Shown here piece after piece: positions 3,766 through 28,987 of a stretch of 51,979 nt of DNA. A program made the position numbers and the translations under genes. Each line of letters begins with the position of its first letter. Position 1 is the first letter of the stretch. The stretch is from a virus. The stretch is taken from positions 1 to 51,979 of the IMG/VR virus record IMGVR_UViG_3300029319_000076; one strand, written 5' to 3'. The notes under the pieces were generated by a model. That model saw nothing but the letters and a program-made list of their open reading frames with translations, had not been told where the DNA came from and did no database searches.

Positions 3766-5886
3766 CTATTCTGGAAATGCTGCACCAGTTGGTAGAATAT
3801 TAAAGTCAATGATAATAAATTCAGCCGTCTTAGTTGGTTGCAAGAATAACTGACCTACCATTTGATTTCTATCTATCACATCTGGTGTATTATTTGTTTC
3901 ATCCATTACTACTTTAAAAGCATATAAACCTTGTCTTTGTTGTACACTTTCTAAATATGGATTCACTATATTTAAGAATCTTAATCTAGTTGCTGCAGTA
4001 TTTTGTTCAAATACTAAGAACTTAGTAGCAGAAGCAATAAACTTCTTAGCTGCGATTAATAATCTTCTAACATTTACTCTATCTAATGCAGATGCTTTCT
4101 TTTGAAGAGTTTTTTGTCCCCAAACACATACACCCGTATTAGGGAAAGTTGCGATTGGATTAACATTACTTTCATATAAAGTATCTCTATTAGTATGAGT
4201 TAATTTTCTCTCTGCCATTGTAGCACTATCAATTCCACCTCTATTCAATCCTGCAGGAGCAAACCATTCAGCTGCCACTCTATCATTGAATGCATATACA
4301 CCTGGTATAACTACTGATGGTGGAACCCATACATTCTTAGCTAATTGATTATCTGGAATCATTACCCATGGCCAATACATTGCAGCATAATTTGAATCTC
4401 TTCCTTCTGCTTTTGCAGTTGCTGTTGCAATTGTTGAACCGTATGATGCTGGATCTACGATTGCAAAACAATCTCCTCTATCTTCACACATGTCAATTGC
4501 TTGAGTAATTATAGCACCATGATTTGCATGATTATCTGTTAATCCAGGTAACAATATTAAATTAATATCATATTCATCTTGATTCTTAAGAATCTTGATT
4601 GCATCTTCATATGCAGTTTTACCATCATTAGCTGAACCTAAATTATATCCTTGCATATTCGTGTTAGTAATGTTTTCATAAAATGCAATTGGATGCTGTA
4701 CATTACCATCAGAACCACCTTGGAATGAACCAGATGATACAGTTGGTAAAGAACCTGATAAACCTGCATCTCTAACATTTCCGTTTTCATCTAAATAATT
4801 ATAAGTTGTTACATGAGTTGTTACTCTAACATATTTAGATTTGTTCGGGAATGAACCTGACAATTGAAGGAATGGATCATTTGTTCCTGAATCTCTAACT
4901 GTCATTGTTTGATCACCAATTACTTTTCCAATAAAATTAGAAGTATTTGGATCAAGTGTTAAATTATTATATTGTTCAATGATTGATTTTCTTTTATCTG
5001 TATCATCACCTCTTCTAATTAATAGGTTGAATGAACCTTTTGCAGTATTAACAGATGTTACTTCAAATTTAAAATTGTCTTTTGAACCTGATGCATATAA
5101 TCCATTAGTTCCAATTGGTCCATTACTATTTAAAATTGCACCATCATTTAACGATGTTAAAGTAAAGCAATTTGTTGAAGTAGTTGTATTAGTACCTCCA
5201 GCTAATGTTAATACATCACTAAAAGTTGTTCCTGAACCAGAATCAACTGAAATACTATTTCCTGCTGTTCCTGCACTTGATGCAGATAAAGCTAAGAATG
5301 TTGTTCCATCTACTGCTGTTACACCAATTGCCGCTGTATTAATTTCTGCTACTAAATTGTCTAATGTAGTAGCTACGTCAGATCCGGTTGCGAAGAAACG
5401 AATGTTTCCATTATCAACTGGGACTCCACCTGCCGGATCAGCTGCTATAAATCTAGTCTCTGTTCCTCCTACTGTAATTTGAAATTCATCTTCTGGTGTT
5501 TGACCATGACTGTTTAATATGGTCAACTTTCCTGAAGCTATTCCAGATCCCACTGTAGTTGATGATGATATAGTTGCTTTTGCTGGTGCATATGCTCCTG
5601 CTAATATTCTTACAACTGTTAATGTTTCTGCATGCTTTAAATATTCTTTTGCTGTATAAGATGTTAAATAAGCATAAGATGATTCTTGTGCTCCAGATCC
5701 ACTACTAAACGTATCTCCAAATATTTGCTGATATTCAGAATAAGATGATACAACAGTTGGAACACCTGCAGGTCCTTTCACTGTCGGTCCTACCAACGCT
5801 GCTCCGATTGCTGCAATACCAGCTGGTAAAAAGGATTGATCTACTTCTTTAGTAAATACACCTGGGCTAACTATTTTTTCTGCCAT
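3766..5886 (-). CDS. gp18: Tail sheath protein, gp18-like
   Basis: This 706-residue protein forms the contractile outer sheath. The N-terminus IVSPGVFTKEVDQSFLP is the classical sheath start, followed by AIGAALVGPTVKGPAGVPT. The C-terminal third has the conserved sheath core (LNRGGID, 'NPIATFPNTGVCVWGQKTL', 'RVNVRRLLIAAKKFI', then FLFVFEQN-like and TAEFIIIDFNILPTG). T4 gp18 is 659 residues, so this is slightly longer. The extra material is probably in the middle, where the composition turns Ser/Thr/Gly-rich (residues about 105-260), consistent with a surface-exposed domain. It is preceded by AAGGAG and an ATATTTAT motif, and followed by the tube gene. Confidence 0.94.
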   Translation of the reverse strand: MAEKIVSPGVFTKEVDQSFLPAGIAAIGAALVGPTVKGPAGVPTVVSSYSEYQQIFGDTFSSGSGAQESSYAYLTSYTAKEYLKHAETLTVVRILAGAYAPAKATISSSTTVGSGIASGKLTILNSHGQTPEDEFQITVGGTETRFIAADPAGGVPVDNGNIRFFATGSDVATTLDNLVAEINTAAIGVTAVDGTTFLALSASSAGTAGNSISVDSGSGTTFSDVLTLAGGTNTTTSTNCFTLTSLNDGAILNSNGPIGTNGLYASGSKDNFKFEVTSVNTAKGSFNLLIRRGDDTDKRKSIIEQYNNLTLDPNTSNFIGKVIGDQTMTVRDSGTNDPFLQLSGSFPNKSKYVRVTTHVTTYNYLDENGNVRDAGLSGSLPTVSSGSFQGGSDGNVQHPIAFYENITNTNMQGYNLGSANDGKTAYEDAIKILKNQDEYDINLILLPGLTDNHANHGAIITQAIDMCEDRGDCFAIVDPASYGSTIATATAKAEGRDSNYAAMYWPWVMIPDNQLAKNVWVPPSVVIPGVYAFNDRVAAEWFAPAGLNRGGIDSATMAERKLTHTNRDTLYESNVNPIATFPNTGVCVWGQKTLQKKASALDRVNVRRLLIAAKKFIASATKFLVFEQNTAATRLRFLNIVNPYLESVQQRQGLYAFKVVMDETNNTPDVIDRNQMVGQLFLQPTKTAEFIIIDFNILPTGAAFPE

Positions 5887-5912
5887 TCGTTTACTCCTTG
5901 TTTAATTTTATT

Positions 5913-5920
5913 ATAAATAT
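5913..5920 (-). promoter_or_regulatory. ATATTTAT motif (putative late promoter)
   Basis: The coding strand reads CGTATATTTATAATAAAA before the SD (AAGGAG) and ATG of the sheath gene. Confidence 0.52.
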
Positions 5921-5940
5921 ACGAAAATGGCATCAAACCA

Positions 5941-6216
5941 TTAGTTTGCAGGAACAAATTCTCCGCTACTTAGGTCTACTGTACCAACTCCGTATTTTTC
6001 TTTAAAACTAGCAACTAAATCAGCTTCTTGTTTTTGTAAATCTCTATATTCATTTTCAGCTTCTGTTTCTAATTCATTTAGTTGATCTAATCGCTGATTT
6101 GTCAATAGTTTATCTAGTTTTATTTGTCCAAATTCAACTACTTTTGCTTGACTTGCATCACGTAGTTCAGTAATCTTTTCCAGTTCCTCTTTTGTAAATT
6201 TAATTGGGTCTGCCAT
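5941..6216 (-). CDS. Small coiled-coil protein before tail sheath
   Basis: This 91-residue protein is not recognised. It is almost entirely heptad-like, rich in Glu, Lys, Leu and Gln (FTKEELEKITELRDASQAKV, then LDQLNELETEAENEYRDLQ). It ends with a short non-helical tail, DLSSGEFVPAN. A strong SD (AAAAGGAG) and an ATATTTAT motif precede its ATG at 6216. It lies between the gp15-like and sheath genes. A scaffold or chaperone role in neck or tail assembly is possible, but this rests only on position and on the predicted coiled coil. Confidence 0.72.
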   Translation of the reverse strand: MADPIKFTKEELEKITELRDASQAKVVEFGQIKLDKLLTNQRLDQLNELETEAENEYRDLQKQEADLVASFKEKYGVGTVDLSSGEFVPAN

Positions 6217-6245
6217 AACTTATTCTCCTTTTATTAATTACATTT

Positions 6246-6253
6246 ATAAATAT
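6246..6253 (-). promoter_or_regulatory. ATATTTAT motif (putative late promoter)
   Basis: The coding strand reads GCATATTTATAAATG, followed by AAAAGGAG and the start of the 91-residue coiled-coil gene. Confidence 0.48.
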
Positions 6254-6264
6254 GCTATTCTTAC

Positions 6265-7212
6265 TTAAGAATACCTTTTTTTGTGTATATGTCTTTGATT
6301 TAATGCAGGTGCTGGATCTGTTATTCTTCTCCTGCTTTGATTTGTATTTCCTTTATCGGATCTATCTAATATTTGAGTTGGTTTTGTTGAATTAGTATAT
6401 CCGCCTGGAGGTGGATTTTCAGTATCAACATTAAATGTTTGAGTTTCTGTTTTAAAATTAATTTTTTTAACTGAATAACTTTTTCTGAAACTTGAAGCGC
6501 GTAATTCAGATTCAAACAATAATGTTGCTTTTGTTGTTAATGGTAATGTTGCTCTTATAATTCTATCTTCACCTGTATTATTTAAAGTTTCAAATGAATA
6601 GTCACCTATATAGGTTGCAAACTTCCATGTAGTACCCCATGCAAATCCTCCTACTGGCATTATTTGTTCTACAATCGAATTTAACTGTTCTGTATATTCA
6701 GTCCATATTAATAAATCATAAGTAACATCAATATACTCTGGAATACTTGATATAAAATATTCGCCTGAAGGTTTTTTATCTCGTAATACATTAAATCTAT
6801 CATACTTGTTTTGCATGGTGTATTTGTTTTTAAATATTAATGAGTTCCCAGCTGGATTAATATTAACATCTAATTTTTTTAATGAATCTCGTTCAACAAT
6901 ATTATTACGTTTGATAATCATTAATGGTGTTAATAATTTACCTTTAGTATCTCTCATATAACCATGTTTTTGAACTTGGCTCCATTTTTCACCGTTTGCA
7001 TACATAATTGGTACATCAATGACTTTATTGTCTTGAGTTATTTGTGGATGTACTATTTCTCGTAGATAAGAAATAACAGCATAATCTACGTCATAAATAT
7101 TACATGTAGGCGTTTTAATAGTATCATTATCTCTTCTGATTTGATCAGCTCTATTGATACTACGATCATTACTAGTCGATGAATATGTTTTATTTAACTT
7201 TATCTTAGCCAT
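6265..7212 (-). CDS. gp15: Tail completion / sheath stabiliser, gp15-like
   Basis: This 315-residue protein resembles T4 gp15 (272 residues), the hexameric terminator that caps the tail and joins it to the neck. Matching features are the early IDVPIMYANGEKWSQVQ block (gp15 has a similar VPITYASKEH block), the central NPAGNSLIFKNKYTMQNKY, and the VTYDLLIWTEYTEQLNSIVE segment followed by QIMPVGG. The last 60 residues (PPPGGYTN and onward) are polar and probably flexible, as in gp15. It lies 3 bases from the gp14-like gene upstream and, with one small gene between, before the sheath, which fits the T4 order gp13-14-15-18. No leader motif lies immediately upstream, so it is probably co-transcribed with the two neck genes. 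Confidence 0.82.
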   Translation of the reverse strand: MAKIKLNKTYSSTSNDRSINRADQIRRDNDTIKTPTCNIYDVDYAVISYLREIVHPQITQDNKVIDVPIMYANGEKWSQVQKHGYMRDTKGKLLTPLMIIKRNNIVERDSLKKLDVNINPAGNSLIFKNKYTMQNKYDRFNVLRDKKPSGEYFISSIPEYIDVTYDLLIWTEYTEQLNSIVEQIMPVGGFAWGTTWKFATYIGDYSFETLNNTGEDRIIRATLPLTTKATLLFESELRASSFRKSYSVKKINFKTETQTFNVDTENPPPGGYTNSTKPTQILDRSDKGNTNQSRRRITDPAPALNQRHIHKKRYS

Positions 7213-14728: not shown

Positions 14729-16423
14729 TTATAGTCTATCTAATCCTTCTACAAATACCTTACCGTAGAATTCTGGTCTTACCATCTTCTTAGCATATCT
14801 AGTCATTACACCTTTTCTTGGAGTGAATGATTTAGGATCATATACTAATGGAGTCATGATAAGTGGAATATATGGAGCATATACCGCACCAGTTTCAAGG
14901 AACTGAGTTCCTCTGTATCCCATTAATATGGTATTTTCAGTCATATATGGATTCTTATAAACTTGGAATCTATTATTAATAGCTCCAACTTTCTGTACAC
15001 CCATTGCAAACTGCGCTTTATCACCATCTGTATCAGCAGCATATCCTGGAATTGATTCTAGAATAGTTGCAACACTTGGAGAACATACAAGGAAGTTCGC
15101 TCCACCTCTTAATGTTAATTGGTGAATCTTGTTACTTACCTTTTGAATTTTAGTTCCTAAAGTTTGGAACCAAGTTCCTTGGTTGTATGCTTGAGCAGCC
15201 GCATTAGATAATTTAAATCCTCCTGTAGCTGAATCATACTCTTGACCAATTCTTGCAGACCATCTATCAACTGTCTGAGCATTTTGGATTAACATATCTA
15301 AAATTTCTAAATCAATTTCTTGCGAAACATATTCAGATAACATAGAAGTTAATTCAGCCTCAGCGTCAATTGAATGATAAGCATTTAAGTCTTGAGCAAA
15401 TTCAGGAGTCCATACTGCTTTCAACTTTCTAGTCTTAGCAACTATAGCCTCAGATCTCATTTCAAGATTGATTTCTGGAATATCTAATGTAGATACTGCA
15501 CCACCTCCTGCTGACGGGAATGATACTGCATTACCATCTTCGAAGTCACCTCTAGTAACATCAGTTGGTGCTTTTTGATACTTAAATGTTGCATTAAACG
15601 TTGTTGGAGTAGCTGCTGTCTTCTTAATTAAGAATTGAACTATACCAGACGTTGGTGCAGAAGTAAACTGCGGGAAGAACGTACTAATACCTGAACCAGA
15701 TACTGTAAATGCTCTTACGCCTTTAAGATCAGCTGCTTCTAATGAAGAAGTTGTTGTTCTTAATACTGTAAATAAGTTTAAATTAGCTCCACCTAATGAT
15801 GCAGAGAATGCTGAATCAAAGTTAGTTGCAAATTCAAGACCAGCTTGAGTAAATGCACCTTTATCAGTAAACGTACCTGTACCAGCTGCAATCGAACCTG
15901 TATTCCAACTTGTTCCACCATCACCTAAGTTTGATGTAGTAGCTTCGTTAATTGAATAACCAAATCTACCTGCACCATAAAGACCTTCAGTTGCTACTGT
16001 AGTTCCTTTATCGTCATCAGTTACACCAAATACAGAATCATTTTGTGAATCTTTACCAGCTCCTGTTTCAAATCCTGGTTGTGATGTTCCATATTTAAAG
16101 TCTAGGAAAAATACTAGACCTGATGGTAAGTTCATTGGCTGAACGCTTACAAAATCTTTTGCAGCTATTTCAGCAAAAATTCTTCTTACCAATGGAAGAG
16201 CAACACCTGACCATTCTTCTGAGTTAGAAGCAGTACCAGTTGAATTAGCTTCAGAAACTAATTGCTTTGCTTGGTTTTCTAAAAGAACTGCCATACCTGA
16301 TTTTTCATACTCGTGGCTTAATCCTTCAAGAAGACCTGTTTTTTGCCATTTATTAACAAGACCAGCTGCTTCCTTTCTTTGGATGTTAGCTGCTTGAGTT
16401 GGCATTAATGAATTTATATCCAT
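14729..16423 (-). CDS. gp23: Major capsid protein, gp23-like
   Basis: This 564-residue protein matches T4 gp23 (521 residues) in organisation. It has an N-terminal propeptide-like helical part (MDINSLMPTQAAN up to about residue 65), then WSGVALPLVRRIFAEI and VQPMNLPSGLVFFLDFKYG, the strongly conserved gp23 entry. The C-terminal half carries AVWTPEFAQDLNAYHSID, 'LEILDMLIQNAQT' and 'LVCSPSVATILESIPGY', ending in KKMVRPEFYGKVFVEGLD. The prohead protease probably removes the first 60 or so residues; LLEGL near residue 32 or LLEN near residue 48 resemble its (L/I)xE preference. SD GGGAG precedes the ATG and a strong terminator follows. The gene directly follows the scaffold gene, as in T4. Confidence 0.95.
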   Translation of the reverse strand: MDINSLMPTQAANIQRKEAAGLVNKWQKTGLLEGLSHEYEKSGMAVLLENQAKQLVSEANSTGTASNSEEWSGVALPLVRRIFAEIAAKDFVSVQPMNLPSGLVFFLDFKYGTSQPGFETGAGKDSQNDSVFGVTDDDKGTTVATEGLYGAGRFGYSINEATTSNLGDGGTSWNTGSIAAGTGTFTDKGAFTQAGLEFATNFDSAFSASLGGANLNLFTVLRTTTSSLEAADLKGVRAFTVSGSGISTFFPQFTSAPTSGIVQFLIKKTAATPTTFNATFKYQKAPTDVTRGDFEDGNAVSFPSAGGGAVSTLDIPEINLEMRSEAIVAKTRKLKAVWTPEFAQDLNAYHSIDAEAELTSMLSEYVSQEIDLEILDMLIQNAQTVDRWSARIGQEYDSATGGFKLSNAAAQAYNQGTWFQTLGTKIQKVSNKIHQLTLRGGANFLVCSPSVATILESIPGYAADTDGDKAQFAMGVQKVGAINNRFQVYKNPYMTENTILMGYRGTQFLETGAVYAPYIPLIMTPLVYDPKSFTPRKGVMTRYAKKMVRPEFYGKVFVEGLDRL

Positions 16424-18018: not shown

Positions 18019-18537
18019 TTAAGATTTTTTTACTGCTTTTGTTACAACTTTTCTTCTATTTAATAAATAAGCATCTGTTTTATCTTTATCACCATCATTA
18101 TCTATATCACCATCTTCTTGGCCTACTGGATCTAAAGCTTCTCCTATTCTATAATACTTATTTAATATACCACCCATATCTTCATATGCTGATTCTAATC
18201 TTTGCTGTAATGTATGAACTTCACCTGCAGTTTTTTCAAAAACTTTATAAGCTTCTTTTAATTGTTTCATATGACGACCAGTTGTAACATTATCAAACCA
18301 ATGTTCTGATTCTGATAAAGTTAATTGTTCTGCTACATTTACAATTTCACCTAATTGTTCTGTAATTTCTCTTAATGATGTATTTCTATATACAGAATCA
18401 CCCATTTGATGATAATTACCAACAGCTTCCGTAAATGATCTTTTTTGCTCTCTTGTTAAACCTTTTTGTTCTTCTTGAGTAAAGTTTTCATTGATTAAAG
18501 ATCTTAACAATGTTTTTTCAAATTTATTTGTTGCCAT
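18019..18537 (-). CDS. Head-region protein with C-terminal EF-hand-like loop
   Basis: This 172-residue protein is mainly helical and acidic ([18 protein letters not shown], '[19 protein letters not shown]'). Near the end lies [18 protein letters not shown] (D144, D146, D148, D150, D155), a calcium-binding DxDxDG loop of EF-hand or dockerin type, followed by a basic tail [13 protein letters not shown]. Similar Asp-rich loops before a basic tail occur in other marine T4-type phage proteins. It overlaps the 121-residue gene by one base (TAATG) and precedes bS21. I infer a head core or assembly role from its neighbours; the residue pattern itself shows only likely calcium binding. Confidence 0.74.
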
Positions 18538-18902
18538 TATAGATTCCTCTTTTGTCTTTCTAAATATTTTTGAAGATCTTCTAATCCTTTCATAGAAACA
18601 TTCATATATCTAGATATTTGTTTTTCAGCTGTTTCATACATATAATTACCAGTTTCATCGCCTTTCTGTTCTACTGCAGTACCCAACGCTTGATGAAACT
18701 CTTCTAAACTTGTCAATAATTCGTTTAGTTGGTCTGAAAAATATTCAATATCTATTCCGACAGGTACTCCAGCTTTTTCTTTTTCCGCTCTAGATTTCAT
18801 TCTTGGAAAAGCTTGGGCCATTGGATTTTCTGTCAGTAAACCATCATTACTTCGACTTTTACCTTCAAACAATTGTTTATATTTATCTTTTAAATTCATC
18901 AT
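18537..18902 (-). CDS. Small helical head-region protein
   Basis: This 121-residue protein begins [20 protein letters not shown], with a polar linker ([20 protein letters not shown]) and a C-terminal pair of predicted helices ([19 protein letters not shown], then [19 protein letters not shown]). It is not recognised as a named family. It is packed between two head-region genes, 1 base from the upstream 74-residue gene and overlapping the next by one base in TAATG, so translation of the three is coupled. Prohead core proteins of T4 (gp67, gp68) occupy a similar place, but I see no sequence that proves this. Confidence 0.7.
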
Positions 18903-19130: not shown

Positions 19131-19733
19131 TTAAAACTCCTTTATAATGTCAGTTATTAATTTATTTACATTGTGATACTTATCAATAGTATGTTGTTTA
19201 CCTTCGTTAACTGGTGATAAGAAAGCTCCATGAGTTGATGGATTTGATACAAAATCAAAAGCTATTAGCTCAAAATCTGGCTGAACTTCTAATGTATTAT
19301 CTCCTTCTCTCATGACCTCTTTTACAGATCCCATACCTCTAGATGATATACCTAATCTAATACCTGATTTAAATAATTCTTTTAATATATTACCAGCTGG
19401 TGTTCCTAATACTTCTACAGTACCTACTAAATCATTTCCTTTCCAAGCCATTTCTAAAACGTTATGAGAAACGTTATTTAAATTTACTACTGATGAATCA
19501 GGATGGTCAAGTTCACCTAAAGCTCTTTTTTCTTTAATAAATTCATTAGAATACTTATTTGCTTCTCTCACTAATGTTTCTTTTGGATAAATTCTGCCAT
19601 TTTGGTTTTTTGCTTCTGCTCTCTGTAGAACACCGTTAACAATTAATCGTCCGCCGTTATTTGCAAGACTTTCATTAATTTGTTGCGGAGTTACCTCAAA
19701 CGTTGTATATTCAACTAATAATTGTTTTGACAT
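19131..19733 (-). CDS. gp21: Prohead core protease, gp21-like
   Basis: This 200-residue serine protease cleaves scaffold and capsid proteins in the prohead. The catalytic blocks of the T4 gp21 family are visible: GELDHPDS with the histidine at residue 77, and RLGISSRGMGSV with the serine at 130 or 131. Between them lies VGTVEVLGTPAGNILKELF. The N-terminal part, GGRLIVNGVLQRAEAKNQNG followed by RIYP, is also typical. T4 gp21 is 212 residues. SD AAGGGAT precedes the ATG. The gene is surrounded by small head genes and is separated from scaffold and capsid by bS21 and three small genes, unlike the contiguous 21-22-23 order of T4. Confidence 0.92.
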   Translation of the reverse strand: MSKQLLVEYTTFEVTPQQINESLANNGGRLIVNGVLQRAEAKNQNGRIYPKETLVREANKYSNEFIKEKRALGELDHPDSSVVNLNNVSHNVLEMAWKGNDLVGTVEVLGTPAGNILKELFKSGIRLGISSRGMGSVKEVMREGDNTLEVQPDFELIAFDFVSNPSTHGAFLSPVNEGKQHTIDKYHNVNKLITDIIKEF

Positions 19734-19736
19734 TGC

Positions 19737-19889
19737 TTATCCCTTATTATATAATCCTGAATTCAAAAACGCTTGATGTTCTTCAAAACGTCTTCGTTCA
19801 TCAGCAAATTTTTTCTTTTGTTCAGCTAAAGTTAAATCTTTATTTTCTTTAGCCTTTATAAATTGTTGCCATGTTCTATTTAAGATCAT
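19737..19889 (-). CDS. 50-residue charged helical protein
   Basis: The small gene starts at an ATG at 19889 that overlaps the stop codon of the previous gene (ATGA). It ends with a TAA 3 bases before the protease start. The product, MILNRTWQQFIKAKENKDLT then LAEQKKKFADERRRFEEHQA, is a single charged helix ending in LNSGLYNKG. The tight overlap on one side and the 3-base gap on the other make it a convincing gene. It is not recognised. By place and size it may be a prohead core peptide comparable with T4 gp67, but no residue pattern shows this. Confidence 0.72.
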   Translation of the reverse strand: MILNRTWQQFIKAKENKDLTLAEQKKKFADERRRFEEHQAFLNSGLYNKG

Positions 19890-20416
19890 TGTGACAACTC
19901 CTTTAATCGATTTGCAATCCTCGTCATTCTTTCATTTATTTTTGCAAAACGCCTTCCTGTTGATTTCCAAAAATGAGATGAATCAACTCCCATTTCTGTT
20001 TTTAATCTTATATTATTATTAACAATCTTTTCCATTAATCCTAACATTTTATTAACTTCAGATATACCTCTGTTAACTTTTTGTTGCGGAGTTGAAGTTG
20101 GATCTTTTTTATAATCTCTATATGATGTCTCATTTAATTGACCTGTTTCATGTATCATTGACATCATTTTTTTATAGATAGAATCTTTTACCATTTCAAA
20201 TCCAGTACTATTTGTTGCATTTTGTTTTTGCTTCTTTTTTCCTGAACCTTTTTTATCATCTTCCATATCATGAAATGCATATGGAGTTTTTGGAGGTCCT
20301 TCTCCGCCATCTAATGCACCAGTTGTACTACCTTCTTGAACTTCACTATCTTTATCGTCATGACCATATACATGATCTTCTTCAAGAAATTTTTTAAAAG
20401 ATTTTAAATAATCCAT
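19886..20416 (-). CDS. Head-region protein with acidic linker
   Basis: This 176-residue protein has a short N-terminal helix (MDYLKSFKKFLEEDHVYGHD) and a flexible stretch EGSTTGALDGGEGPPKTPYA. A lysine-rich block (KKGSGKKKQKQN) and a helical C-terminal half follow (NRGISEVNKMLGLMEKIVNN, then RRFAKINERMTRIANRLKEL). The EGST-[TA]-GA...DGP stretch recurs in the nucleotidyltransferase-ligase protein encoded at 26.7-29.0 kb. It overlaps the 50-residue gene by 4 bases. An internal head or scaffold-associated role is inferred from neighbours. Confidence 0.7.
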   Translation of the reverse strand: MDYLKSFKKFLEEDHVYGHDDKDSEVQEGSTTGALDGGEGPPKTPYAFHDMEDDKKGSGKKKQKQNATNSTGFEMVKDSIYKKMMSMIHETGQLNETSYRDYKKDPTSTPQQKVNRGISEVNKMLGLMEKIVNNNIRLKTEMGVDSSHFWKSTGRRFAKINERMTRIANRLKELSQ

Positions 20417-26317: not shown

Positions 26318-26620
26318 TTATACCTCGTCTCGTTTTGATAACGATCCACGTACCTTTTGTTGATTTAATCTTTGCTTTAATTTATTGATAACACCTGTAT
26401 CACCTGCTGCTAATGATTTTATCACTTGCAATAAACCTGCTGCTCTCTGATCATCTGATCCAGATCCTAGAATAGCTTTTAATCTATCAAATCCTTGCAT
26501 TTTACTTAATGCTGAAAGTCTAGTAGATGCTGTCCTTTTTGCTCTATCTAAATAAGATCTTTCATTTAAAATTTTTTTGATTTCAGATCTTATCGCTTCT
26601 CTTAATTTTTCTTCATTCAT
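26318..26620 (-). CDS. Small basic helical protein
   Basis: This 100-residue protein, MNEEKLREAIRSEIKKILNE at the start, has a Ser/Arg-rich middle (LDRAKRTASTRLSALSKMQG) and ends KLKQRLNQQKVRGSLSKRDE. The opening helix 'LRexIRxEIxxiLNE' is a recurring N-terminus among small proteins of marine T4-type phages and might be a sorting or binding signal, but this is memory-based. An ATATTTAT motif and AAAGGGAA ribosome binding site precede it. It begins the group that leads to holin, terminase and portal. Function is unknown. Confidence 0.68.
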   Translation of the reverse strand: MNEEKLREAIRSEIKKILNERSYLDRAKRTASTRLSALSKMQGFDRLKAILGSGSDDQRAAGLLQVIKSLAAGDTGVINKLKQRLNQQKVRGSLSKRDEV

Positions 26621-26650: not shown

Positions 26651-28987
26651 CTACTTATCACCTAGTCCGCCAATTCCTAACAATTGATTGATAGGCGCAA
26701 ATAAACCTGTTAATTTATATGTTTTTCCTTTATATATAAATACTATACCTTCTGTAGGTACTAATTTTTCAAATCCGCCTAAGTCTTCAATACGTTTTAA
26801 TTCAAATTTTAATTTTTCAAGTGACGCTAAATCCTTAGATTTCTGTATGACTTTGATTTTTGAAGCTATTCTTCGTCTTATATCCTTTACAGCATCTGTT
26901 GGAACCACTGATAAATAATCTGAAATGTTAGCTAATATTTCAACTCCTAATTCCAAAAATATTTTTTCAAAATTATATACATTTTGTTTGTTTTGTTTTT
27001 TAAAATCTGTTTTATCAAATTCTTTTATTCTATTTAAAATATTAACATCAGGTATACTTGCTTTTGTTAATCTCATAGATTTATCAGAATATCCCCAACG
27101 TTTTAGCAAACCAAATTTAATATCATCAGTTGTATCAGGAAATAATTCTTCAATTTTATTTTTCCACCACATTTCATGCCACATTACTAATTCATCAGTA
27201 TCTTTTAATTTGTATTGTTTTTGTAACTGATTTACCTTGTTGATAAAGTATTGTTCCTTTTCTTCAAAATTAGGTAATTGTTTTAATGTTAATATTTTTG
27301 GAGGTATAATTTCAAATTGTTTTTGAATGTTTGCATTTACATCGGCTATCATTTTTTGCAATAATGGAGCATATTCTGGATATGAATCTGTCTTAGTTGC
27401 TGTATCTAAATTAAATTCGTCTACTCCATGAAATTGAATATAAGCTTTTGGTCCATACATTACAACGTTTTGAGTTCCTGGATATATAATTTCCATATTT
27501 AAAAATCTAGCTCCATTTCTAAATATTTCAAACAATTTTTCTTTTGGTATTCTTAATAATGCACGTTCTAAATCTTGCATTGCAAATGTAAAAGCATTTT
27601 CTATTTCTCCTCTTCCTGCAAATTTTGATTTTACTGCATCAATATCCATCGGAGTTCTTATAGTAGATTTATTTCTTGCTGCTCCAACTTTTCCATCTTT
27701 AAATGTTACTGCAAGATTTTGTCCATCTGTTTTTTCTTGTACTCCTGCTTCGATATCCAATTTACCTTCAAGAGATAATCGTATCATTTGCTTCATATCA
27801 CCAAATGTAATATCTCTATCATCGAATGGATGGTTCATATGACCTGCCGCACCACCTTCAGTTATTAATTCAATTGCTAATGATTCACCTAATGTTTTAG
27901 GTTTATAGTTATTTTCTTTCAATGTTGTTGGCACTAATTTTTCTCCTTTACTTGATTCAATAGAATCTTCCGCTCCTAGAAAATCTAAAAATTTAAATCC
28001 AACAGATTGAGCTATTTTTGAAATATAACTTTTCCATTTTGTATATCCAGGACGTCCTTTATAATCTTTTATATAATCTGTACCTGCAAACTCTCCTCCC
28101 TTAACACCTGTTGGAAAATATGATACTGTTAATGGTGGTCCATCTGGATACATTGTATTATGTATTTCAATTGGATTATCTTTTATAATATAATTTATAA
28201 CTTCGAATCCTAATCTTTTAGCCATATTAGATGTTTGCTTTCTATATGTGGTTTGATTTCCATAAAAATATCTTGGACCATCATCTACATCAGCTTTTCC
28301 TTGTGCACCAGCTGTACTTCCTTCTGTTAGATAATCTTTTATATTGATAGTAGTTAAAAATTCTGCTATTGAACTAGAAAATTTTTTTCTTAATAATTGA
28401 TAAATTTTTGGATCGAACCAACCCATAATATTTTTAAATGTATTCATATCAGCTGTTGCTAATGCTGATCTTAATGTAGTGCCAGACATTTCACCAAATC
28501 CTGGTATCTTTAACTCTATATGCGGGGCTATAACAACATATCCATGCGTTTCATATCCTTTTAGATTTGATTTAGACTTTTCATAATCTTGGAAATATCC
28601 TGGTGTTCCATCTTTTTTAGTATAGCGCAATCTTCCAGCATCTTTTTTTCCGTATACAAATACAACTGCAGTAGTGTTAGGATTATATTTTTTTAATAAA
28701 TTTTCTGGTGCGTATACATTACGTTCTTGTACAACATTTTGTATTCCATGCTTTCTAATAACTTGCACCTTTTCTCGAAAATTTAATGGCGATTTAGGAG
28801 GATCAACTTTATTTGATGTTACAATATAAGTATTTGATTTTCCAAATTTTCCAGCTAACCAATCATATACTTGTGCATGATGTTTACCCATAGGTTGAAA
28901 TCTGCCTGGATAGATTGCAATAACAGTTTTTATTTGCGAATTTGCTTCTGTTATTATATTTTGTACTATATGTTGACCTAAATTCAT
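26651..28987 (-). CDS. Fusion of NMNAT-like nucleotidyltransferase and KxDG ligase-like domain
   Basis: This 778-residue protein has three parts. Residues about 20-205 form a Rossmann-type nucleotidyltransferase: AIYPGRFQPMGKHHAQVYDW carries a variant of the HxGH motif (GKHH, first His replaced), and GEMSGTTLRSAL replaces the usual ISxTxxR. Residues about 220-345 form a middle region with DDGPRYFYGN. Residues about 380-778 carry the marks of a covalent nucleotidyltransferase (RNA/DNA ligase fold): motif I QEKTDGQ (K419, D421, G422), FLNMEII (E499), motif IV PTEGIVF (E746) and motif V TYKLTG (K758), with a large insert between them. The likely reactions are transfer of AMP to a small nucleotide (NAD-type synthesis) and ligation of RNA or DNA ends. 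Substrates are unknown. An ATATTTAT motif abuts its ATG. Confidence 0.82.
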   Translation of the reverse strand: MNLGQHIVQNIITEANSQIKTVIAIYPGRFQPMGKHHAQVYDWLAGKFGKSNTYIVTSNKVDPPKSPLNFREKVQVIRKHGIQNVVQERNVYAPENLLKKYNPNTTAVVFVYGKKDAGRLRYTKKDGTPGYFQDYEKSKSNLKGYETHGYVVIAPHIELKIPGFGEMSGTTLRSALATADMNTFKNIMGWFDPKIYQLLRKKFSSSIAEFLTTINIKDYLTEGSTAGAQGKADVDDGPRYFYGNQTTYRKQTSNMAKRLGFEVINYIIKDNPIEIHNTMYPDGPPLTVSYFPTGVKGGEFAGTDYIKDYKGRPGYTKWKSYISKIAQSVGFKFLDFLGAEDSIESSKGEKLVPTTLKENNYKPKTLGESLAIELITEGGAAGHMNHPFDDRDITFGDMKQMIRLSLEGKLDIEAGVQEKTDGQNLAVTFKDGKVGAARNKSTIRTPMDIDAVKSKFAGRGEIENAFTFAMQDLERALLRIPKEKLFEIFRNGARFLNMEIIYPGTQNVVMYGPKAYIQFHGVDEFNLDTATKTDSYPEYAPLLQKMIADVNANIQKQFEIIPPKILTLKQLPNFEEKEQYFINKVNQLQKQYKLKDTDELVMWHEMWWKNKIEELFPDTTDDIKFGLLKRWGYSDKSMRLTKASIPDVNILNRIKEFDKTDFKKQNKQNVYNFEKIFLELGVEILANISDYLSVVPTDAVKDIRRRIASKIKVIQKSKDLASLEKLKFELKRIEDLGGFEKLVPTEGIVFIYKGKTYKLTGLFAPINQLLGIGGLGDK

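Follow-up and report, generated by a model that had tools for sequence, protein, structure and literature searches.

A 778-residue open reading frame on the minus strand of the T4-related phage sequence analysed here (the 51,979 nucleotides of IMG/VR record IMGVR_UViG_3300029319_000076, hereafter the window) probably encodes a polyprotein that is packaged into the phage head and cut by the head protease. As judged by comparison among relatives, this reading is carried by the predicted folds of the modules, by invariant sites at their borders, by the shuffling of modules at these sites and by the occurrence of the same modules as standalone, similarly tagged proteins. The reading frame is divided as follows, with a slash marking a putative cut.

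26651..28987, minus strand: whole polyprotein reading frame, 778 aa, ATG start
28946..28987, minus strand: residues 1-14, capsid-targeting-like N-terminal helix, ending IITE/A, putative prohead-protease site after E14
28322..28945, minus strand: residues 15-222, NMNAT/PPAT-type nucleotidyltransferase (NTase; from predicted fold and conservation), ending DYLTE/G, putative site after E222
28877..28906, minus strand: residues 28-37, GRFQPMGKHH, altered HxGH motif
27914..28321, minus strand: residues 223-358, middle module (DVDDGP...; from alignment), ending TTLKE/N
27857..27913, minus strand: residues 359-377, internal peptide resembling a capsid-targeting sequence (CTS), KTLGESLAIELITE/GG, putative site after E377
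26651..27856, minus strand: residues 378-778 and stop, KxDG RNA-ligase-like module (from predicted fold and catalytic residues)
27722..27733, minus strand: residues 419-422, KTDG, nucleotidyltransferase motif I (K419)

We propose that the chain would be synthesized late in infection, a timing that we infer, and that the amphipathic helix of residues 1-14 would target it into the prohead core in the manner of T4 capsid-targeting sequences. A gp21-type phage protease would then cut after (L/I)xE at E14, E222 and E377, with an additional cut at E358 in about half of the representatives, freeing a nucleotidyltransferase, the middle protein and an RNA-ligase-like enzyme inside the head. The pieces would be delivered into the host along with the DNA and be active immediately, ahead of phage gene expression. 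Packaging, cleavage, delivery and substrates are thus what we infer, in part by analogy with T4, in which, according to the accessible part of PMC9026906, the prohead protease gp21 cleaves after L/I-X-E, while ten N-terminal residues of IPIII suffice to direct a protein into the head.

Candidate cleavage sites and their genomic setting

A scan of IMG/VR gave 129 relatives, for which 80 loci were kept; 73 sequences, including that of the window, were aligned, with nine loci omitted (L081, which is a copy of the window itself; two whose frames are broken; six that are truncated or lack a full start), and 47 representatives at less than 90% identity were taken from the 73. The broken frames, L023 near query residue 593 and L029 near 201, could be sequencing errors or real splits and were excluded from the counts. 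Glutamate stands at positions 14, 222 and 377 in all 47 representatives, preceded at P3 by L or I in 43, 45 and 47 of them, respectively, and these positions mark the start of the NTase, its border with the middle module, and the start of the ligase module. The (L/I)xE motif is short and degenerate; among the 16 [LIVMF]xE motifs of the window protein, however, none besides these three reaches 45/47 as [LI]xE.

The full-length structure model (pLDDT 69.7, pTM 0.46, from a 20-sequence alignment) places residues 2-15 in a helix and sites 222 and 377 in stretches with pLDDT below 50, which around site 222 may only reflect the thin alignment; because pTM is 0.46, no relative placement of the domains is claimed. 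The middle module has no Pfam match and no confident structure in this model. When all peptides ending in Glu are compared with the N-terminal peptide, the one before E377 is its best match in 13 of the 47 representatives and among the top three in 25, and the one before E222 is best in 10 and among the top three in 16. This recurrence of the N-terminal peptide inside the chain is suggestive rather than strong evidence. Residues 359-377 also occupy the spot where relatives carry a KOW-like module.

The window itself encodes a gp21-type prohead protease and several head-region proteins with comparable motifs.

19131..19733, minus strand: head maturation (prohead) protease (phrog_207, E 8.7e-56), the proposed processing enzyme
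14729..16423, minus strand: major head protein (phrog_138)
26318..26620, minus strand: 100-aa neighbour with a CTS-like start, MNEEKLREAIRSEIKKILNE/RS, assigned from sequence only
18537-18902, minus strand: small head-region protein with [LI]xE near its start
19886-20416, minus strand: small head-region protein with [LI]xE near its start

The propeptide of the major head protein probably ends at LVSE/A (residue 58, 16250-16252), the same kind of motif as in the polyprotein, and [LIV]xE is present at E58 in all 80 sequences compared, while E49 has it in 79 of them. Several further small proteins of the head region have [LI]xE close to the N-terminus and resemble capsid-targeting leaders, reading GLLTE/NP at 18537-18902, KFLEE/DH at 19886-20416 and KILNE/RS in the 100-aa neighbour, which has no PHROG match. 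As a separate observation, a 172-aa head-region protein (18019-18537, minus strand) bears a C-terminal tag, DNDGD...DAYLLNRR, and this tag matches the PHROG cytidyltransferase family phrog_764 and others; since a tag of this kind is shared with syn9 gp185 and immuto protein 192, it may be another head-related tag.

Downstream of the polyprotein gene, in its reading direction, lie genes for a holin-like protein, the large terminase (TerL), the portal, the protease and the major head protein. Among the matches listed, TerL is present at all 65 loci that extend at least 5 kb past the polyprotein gene and at 102 of the 103 that extend at least 3 kb. The initial annotation had put the gene between fibre and packaging genes, where it considered such an enzyme unexpected. 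The packaging side of this description is borne out by the terminase and portal genes, while the fibre identity of the 1230-aa gene upstream is unconfirmed, as it has no PHROG match; the position itself is accounted for, because a place beside the terminase gene, seen in 65 of 65 listed relatives, is expected of a head-packaged protein. A PADLOC search gave nothing. By TerL and head protein, the nearest cultured relatives are Microcystis phage Mel-JY01, which carries a homologue of the polyprotein without the middle module, and Flavobacterium phage immuto.

The two catalytic modules

The six motifs pointed out in the initial annotation (GRFQPMGKHH, MSGTTLR, KTDG, FLNMEII, EGIVF and YKLTG) are all found at the residues that it gave. 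In the NTase, residues 20-205 of the full-length model match NMN/NaMN and phosphopantetheine adenylyltransferases in Foldseek (2r5w, E 8.3e-4, probability 1.00), and the best VIA-align row is 6buv (Z 11.6, rmsd 3.1, 153 aligned), with NadD, NadM and PPAT tied and with families missing from the VIA-align lists not counted as excluded. The comparison with NMNAT thus recovered the HIGH-superfamily Rossmann fold that residues 20-205 have in common with NadM, NadD and PPAT. Sequence libraries add little: PHROG 'cytidyltransferase' families match residues 18-201 (E 1.4e-8), Pfam gives a sub-threshold CTP_transf_like match and a spurious GDSL match, and NCBIfam gives only a weak archaeal NMNAT match. 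The segment MSGTTLR (residues 167-173) contains SGTxxR, which we take to be a motif of the NadM/NadD/PPAT adenylyltransferases.

Unlike these enzymes, the window chain has GxHH in place of HxGH and has no Nudix or kinase partner. The alteration of HxGH, already noted in the initial annotation, is a stable feature of the clade, since GRFQPMG (with G34), H36 and H37 are invariant in 47 of 47 representatives, and GxHH accounts for 106 of the 117 NTase motifs tallied across the relatives listed, the canonical form (HSGH) for 11. Because HxGH is altered in the window clade, NTase activity is uncertain, and on sequence grounds the module may be inactive or of changed substrate. Once released, an NMNAT-type enzyme would most likely make or restore an adenylated cofactor such as NAD, although NAD synthesis in particular is a possibility that we regard as doubtful.

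For the C-terminal module, conservation of the catalytic residues is complete among the matches listed from both scans: K419, D421, G422, R438, E499, E746 and K758 are unchanged in 149 of 149 modules, and K419, D421 and G422 are invariant in the 47 representatives, so the lysine on which the initial annotation had staked its ligase assignment is indeed conserved. Besides KTDG, the window protein has FLNMEII at 495-501, EGIVF at 746-750 and YKLTG at 757-761; motifs III-V were placed on these residues by comparison with what we presume to be the ligase motifs. Motifs III (E499) and IV (E746) are indeed separated by a long insert, as also noted earlier, of about 245 residues that are mostly helical in the model. 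A model of residues 378-778 (22 sequences, pLDDT 84, pTM 0.80) was compared with the PDB, and the first 42 Foldseek rows were RNA ligases, DNA ligases or a capping complex (E from 3.1e-3), led by an archaeal RNA ligase, T4 Rnl1 and a fungal tRNA ligase; VIA-align put Naegleria RNA ligase first (6vt1, Z 8.2, rmsd 4.2, 184 aligned). The comparison with RNA ligases therefore matched the predicted fold with moderate scores, and it is the consistency of the match list together with the motifs that suggests the assignment.

In its predicted fold the module resembles T4 Rnl1, T4 Rnl2 and Naegleria RNA ligase, with which it also shares motifs I, III, IV and V. It differs from them in its helical III-IV insert and in giving no ligase family in Pfam at E up to 1 and no PDB match by profile at E up to 10. 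Its most likely function would be the sealing of broken RNA (tRNA), and we judge the chances for and against RNA ligation by the KxDG module to be evenly balanced.

Modules exchanged at the sites

A profile scan with the ligase module gave at least 600 pattern matches, from which 80 loci (L087-L166) were kept; with L085 and L086 these form the distant set, in which 80 of 82 loci (not L127 and L143) have a suitable reading frame. Among the matches listed, chains complete at both ends measure 650 to about 1,600 aa, the standalone L085 apart, and combine NTase and ligase modules with varying cargo, while the chain of L086, truncated at its start, reaches 2,094 aa. The cargo includes a PolyA_pol/CCA-adding module with an HD domain in L086, a PolyA_pol module in L129 in which the HD domain was not detected, a P-loop kinase (AAA_33/Zeta_toxin) in L089, L102, L103, L118 and L142, and a ParB-like domain, below the Pfam cut-off, in L084, a 484-kb phage. 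A KOW-like module, named by eye and without a Pfam match, lies between the middle module and the ligase in ten close relatives (L001-L004, L006-L008 and L010-L012) and a few more, whereas in L100 and others it takes the N-terminal position; it is absent from the window.

For the NTase and the middle module, borders were scored as the 14-residue stretch before the module in 43 non-redundant chains drawn from 67. Of the 32 distant chains listed that include an NTase, 28 show [LIV]xE before it (background 0.117 per stretch) and 15 show strict [LI]xE (background 0.081); [LIV]xE precedes the middle (DDGP) module in 26 of 26 and the kinase module in 16 of 16, and [LIVF]xE precedes the KOW-like module in 27 of 27. 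Modules thus appear, from these alignments, to come and go mostly directly after an (L/I)xE-type motif.

Several other segments were seen along these chains. L086 includes, as a module of its 2,094-aa chain, a membrane-like hydrophobic stretch (by eye, 4230-5039) without a Pfam match, and L102 a 500-residue segment between kinase and NTase (5286-6809) that is Ntn-hydrolase-like by eye and has no convincing Pfam match. A polymerase-beta-like segment of L096 was considered as RlaP and is unsupported, its NTP_transf_2 match (E 0.023) falling below the cut-off; PF10127 was likewise not detected in the 5.9-kb record of L142, which is a weak test, this being a different and short record. In Flavobacterium phage immuto_2-6A, a 907-aa protein annotated as an NMN adenylyltransferase (L252:7132-9855) looks by eye like a similar chain. 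It appears to comprise a nucleotidyltransferase-like N-terminus, an NTase marked by GGFKPPHLAH and a further part containing HEMIHH, with LAE/A, VKE/G and MAE/G between them.

Separate genes for the same modules are also found. A 462-kb phage has the ligase module as a standalone 421-aa protein with a CTS-like start, MKFLKSYEEFLNENLILE/GGSYGH. In Pelagibacter phage HTVC008M, a kinase that begins MIPFILKE/GLYDPGIFK is 44% identical to the kinase module of the L103 polyprotein, its neighbour is a DUF6267 gene that begins MYNDLLVE/DKNTH, a gene between the two has a KOW-like segment, and another nucleotidyltransferase lies next door. DUF6267 (PF19782), known from T4-like cyanophages and pelagiphages, has a KWDG motif and fills the ligase slot in some relatives: in L061 and L072-L074 the match to the window, at 77-78%, is confined to residues 1-372, and in L061 and L072 DUF6267 replaces the ligase module after a conserved LLTE (Pfam E 8.4e-101 and 3.1e-99). 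Homology between DUF6267 and the ligase module is not detectable: the window protein has no Pfam match to PF19782, and distant homology was not supported, at an hhalign probability of 0.1, from a profile of only 5 DUF6267 sequences. Relatives of DUF6267 occur in 466 phage records, mostly cyanophages, in which the gene adjoins cytidylyltransferase genes. As counter-examples, the DUF6267 and cytidylyltransferase genes of S-MbCM7 and the DUF6267 gene of P-HM1 have no CTS-like start. No paper naming DUF6267 was found in a search without most subscription journals, nor, in the accessible part of PMC3037559, cyanophage virion proteomics naming these proteins.

In one clade the last site has been lost. 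The residue before the ligase module in the 80 distant loci listed is M in 36 and C in one, and the border is [LI]xE in 43. In the M-type loci the DNA at the border mostly reads AAAGGAGTTATTATTA-ATG, and AGGAG lies 5-15 nt upstream of the border ATG in 34 of 36 (20 of 21 non-redundant) of those listed, compared with 1 of the 959 in-frame ATGs elsewhere in these reading frames. This Shine-Dalgarno sequence and ATG indicate that the ligase module has its own start where the cleavage site is absent. The upstream frame nevertheless stays open across the border, and among the matches listed [LIV]xE is retained 8-45 residues before it in 26 of 33 (background 0.33), so that both routes, cleavage and internal initiation, may be in use in the M clade. 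By either route, the ligase module could end up as a protein in its own right.

Alternative readings and known systems

Four other explanations were weighed against a cleaved, head-packaged chain. The initial annotation saw a single two-enzyme chain in which dinucleotide synthesis is coupled to ligation, so that the NMNAT-like half would make a dinucleotide or cofactor and the ligase half would use it on RNA ends or remove it from them. The two folds and the conserved ligase residues stand, and both catalytic folds do share one reading frame in most of the 73 aligned sequences and in many of the distant relatives listed. The functional coupling is not supported: invariant cleavage-type sites and low-confidence linkers divide the halves, the spacer modules between them vary, and the ligase module is alone in one phage, is replaced by DUF6267 in others and has its own ribosome-binding site and start codon in one clade. 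We therefore regard a bifunctional enzyme as very improbable. A chain that is produced and active in the infected cell at a late stage, without ever being packaged, and whose (L/I)xE motifs are ordinary helix ends, would suit the clade that can translate the ligase from an internal start without a tag, yet Glu is absolutely conserved at three borders and the motif recurs at the borders of unrelated modules, which makes this explanation quite unlikely.

Two further explanations accept part of the proposal. The protein could be a structural or DNA-condensing component of the head interior, its enzyme folds inherited but inactive; the neighbouring head and packaging genes and the altered HxGH would fit, but seven ligase-type catalytic positions are unchanged in all 149 modules listed and modules are swapped for other enzymes, and there is little to recommend this idea. 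Alternatively, the polyprotein may be real and its main job NAD repletion, with the injected NTase rebuilding NAD destroyed by host defence and the ligase an unrelated passenger. Among solved folds, NMN and NaMN adenylyltransferases come closest, on a par with PPAT, and the accessible part of PMC7824862 reports NAD synthesis genes in phages and reads the NMN adenylyltransferases of jumbo phages as part of NAD supply; the prevalence of GxHH over the canonical motif among the relatives listed speaks against it, and we consider it unlikely. Returning to the packaged and cleaved chain, its companion modules, the P-loop kinase and the CCA-adding enzyme with its HD domain, fit an RNA- and nucleotide-repair kit. 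We tentatively suggest, while giving it somewhat less than an even chance, that many T4-related phages carry a cassette-like delivery chain, a leader followed by swappable, site-bounded modules, which would inject, at time zero, a ready-made pathway for RNA and nucleotide repair, made up of kinase, CCA-adding enzyme, RNA ligase and NMNAT-type enzyme, to counter defences that cut tRNA or deplete NAD, with one clade also making free ligase from an internal start.

If this proposal is true, the T4-type head protease doubles as a polyprotein processor, a role that proteases have in eukaryotic RNA viruses, while the phage head serves as a modular vehicle that delivers an entire enzyme pathway. Families so far hypothetical, such as DUF6267, would gain functions, and the presence of nucleotidyltransferase genes among head and packaging genes would be accounted for. 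The proposal would also suggest that phages come prepared to reverse tRNA damage or NAD loss. For expression of the individual enzymes, the sites moreover mark clean borders. No paper on an enzyme chain cut by a head protease was found in a search without most subscription journals.

The jumbo-phage gene sets of PMC7824862 comprise an RNA ligase, a CCA-adding enzyme and a kinase, as do these chains, and are read there as an RNA-repair set against tRNA-cutting defences; in the accessible part of that paper they are not described as modules of one head-packaged chain. Polyvalent proteins, as far as the accessible text of PMC5512222 goes, combine many disparate enzymatic domains per chain, where the window chain has at least two, and are thought to be delivered with the DNA; Iyer et al. 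(2017) themselves draw the polyprotein analogy for them there. In polyvalent proteins, however, embedded peptidase domains release the parts (PMC5512222, accessible text), whereas the window protein matches no Pfam peptidase family at E up to 1 and is proposed to be cut in trans, by the head protease. The T4 internal proteins and Alt have, like the window chain, a short N-terminal helix ending in (L/I)xE, a gp21-type protease in the genome and, in Alt, an enzyme as cargo. They are CTS-tagged, cleaved by gp21 and injected. While T4 cargo proteins have propeptides at their ends, chains of the window type comprise several enzymes, with sites inside the chain at which the modules are swapped.
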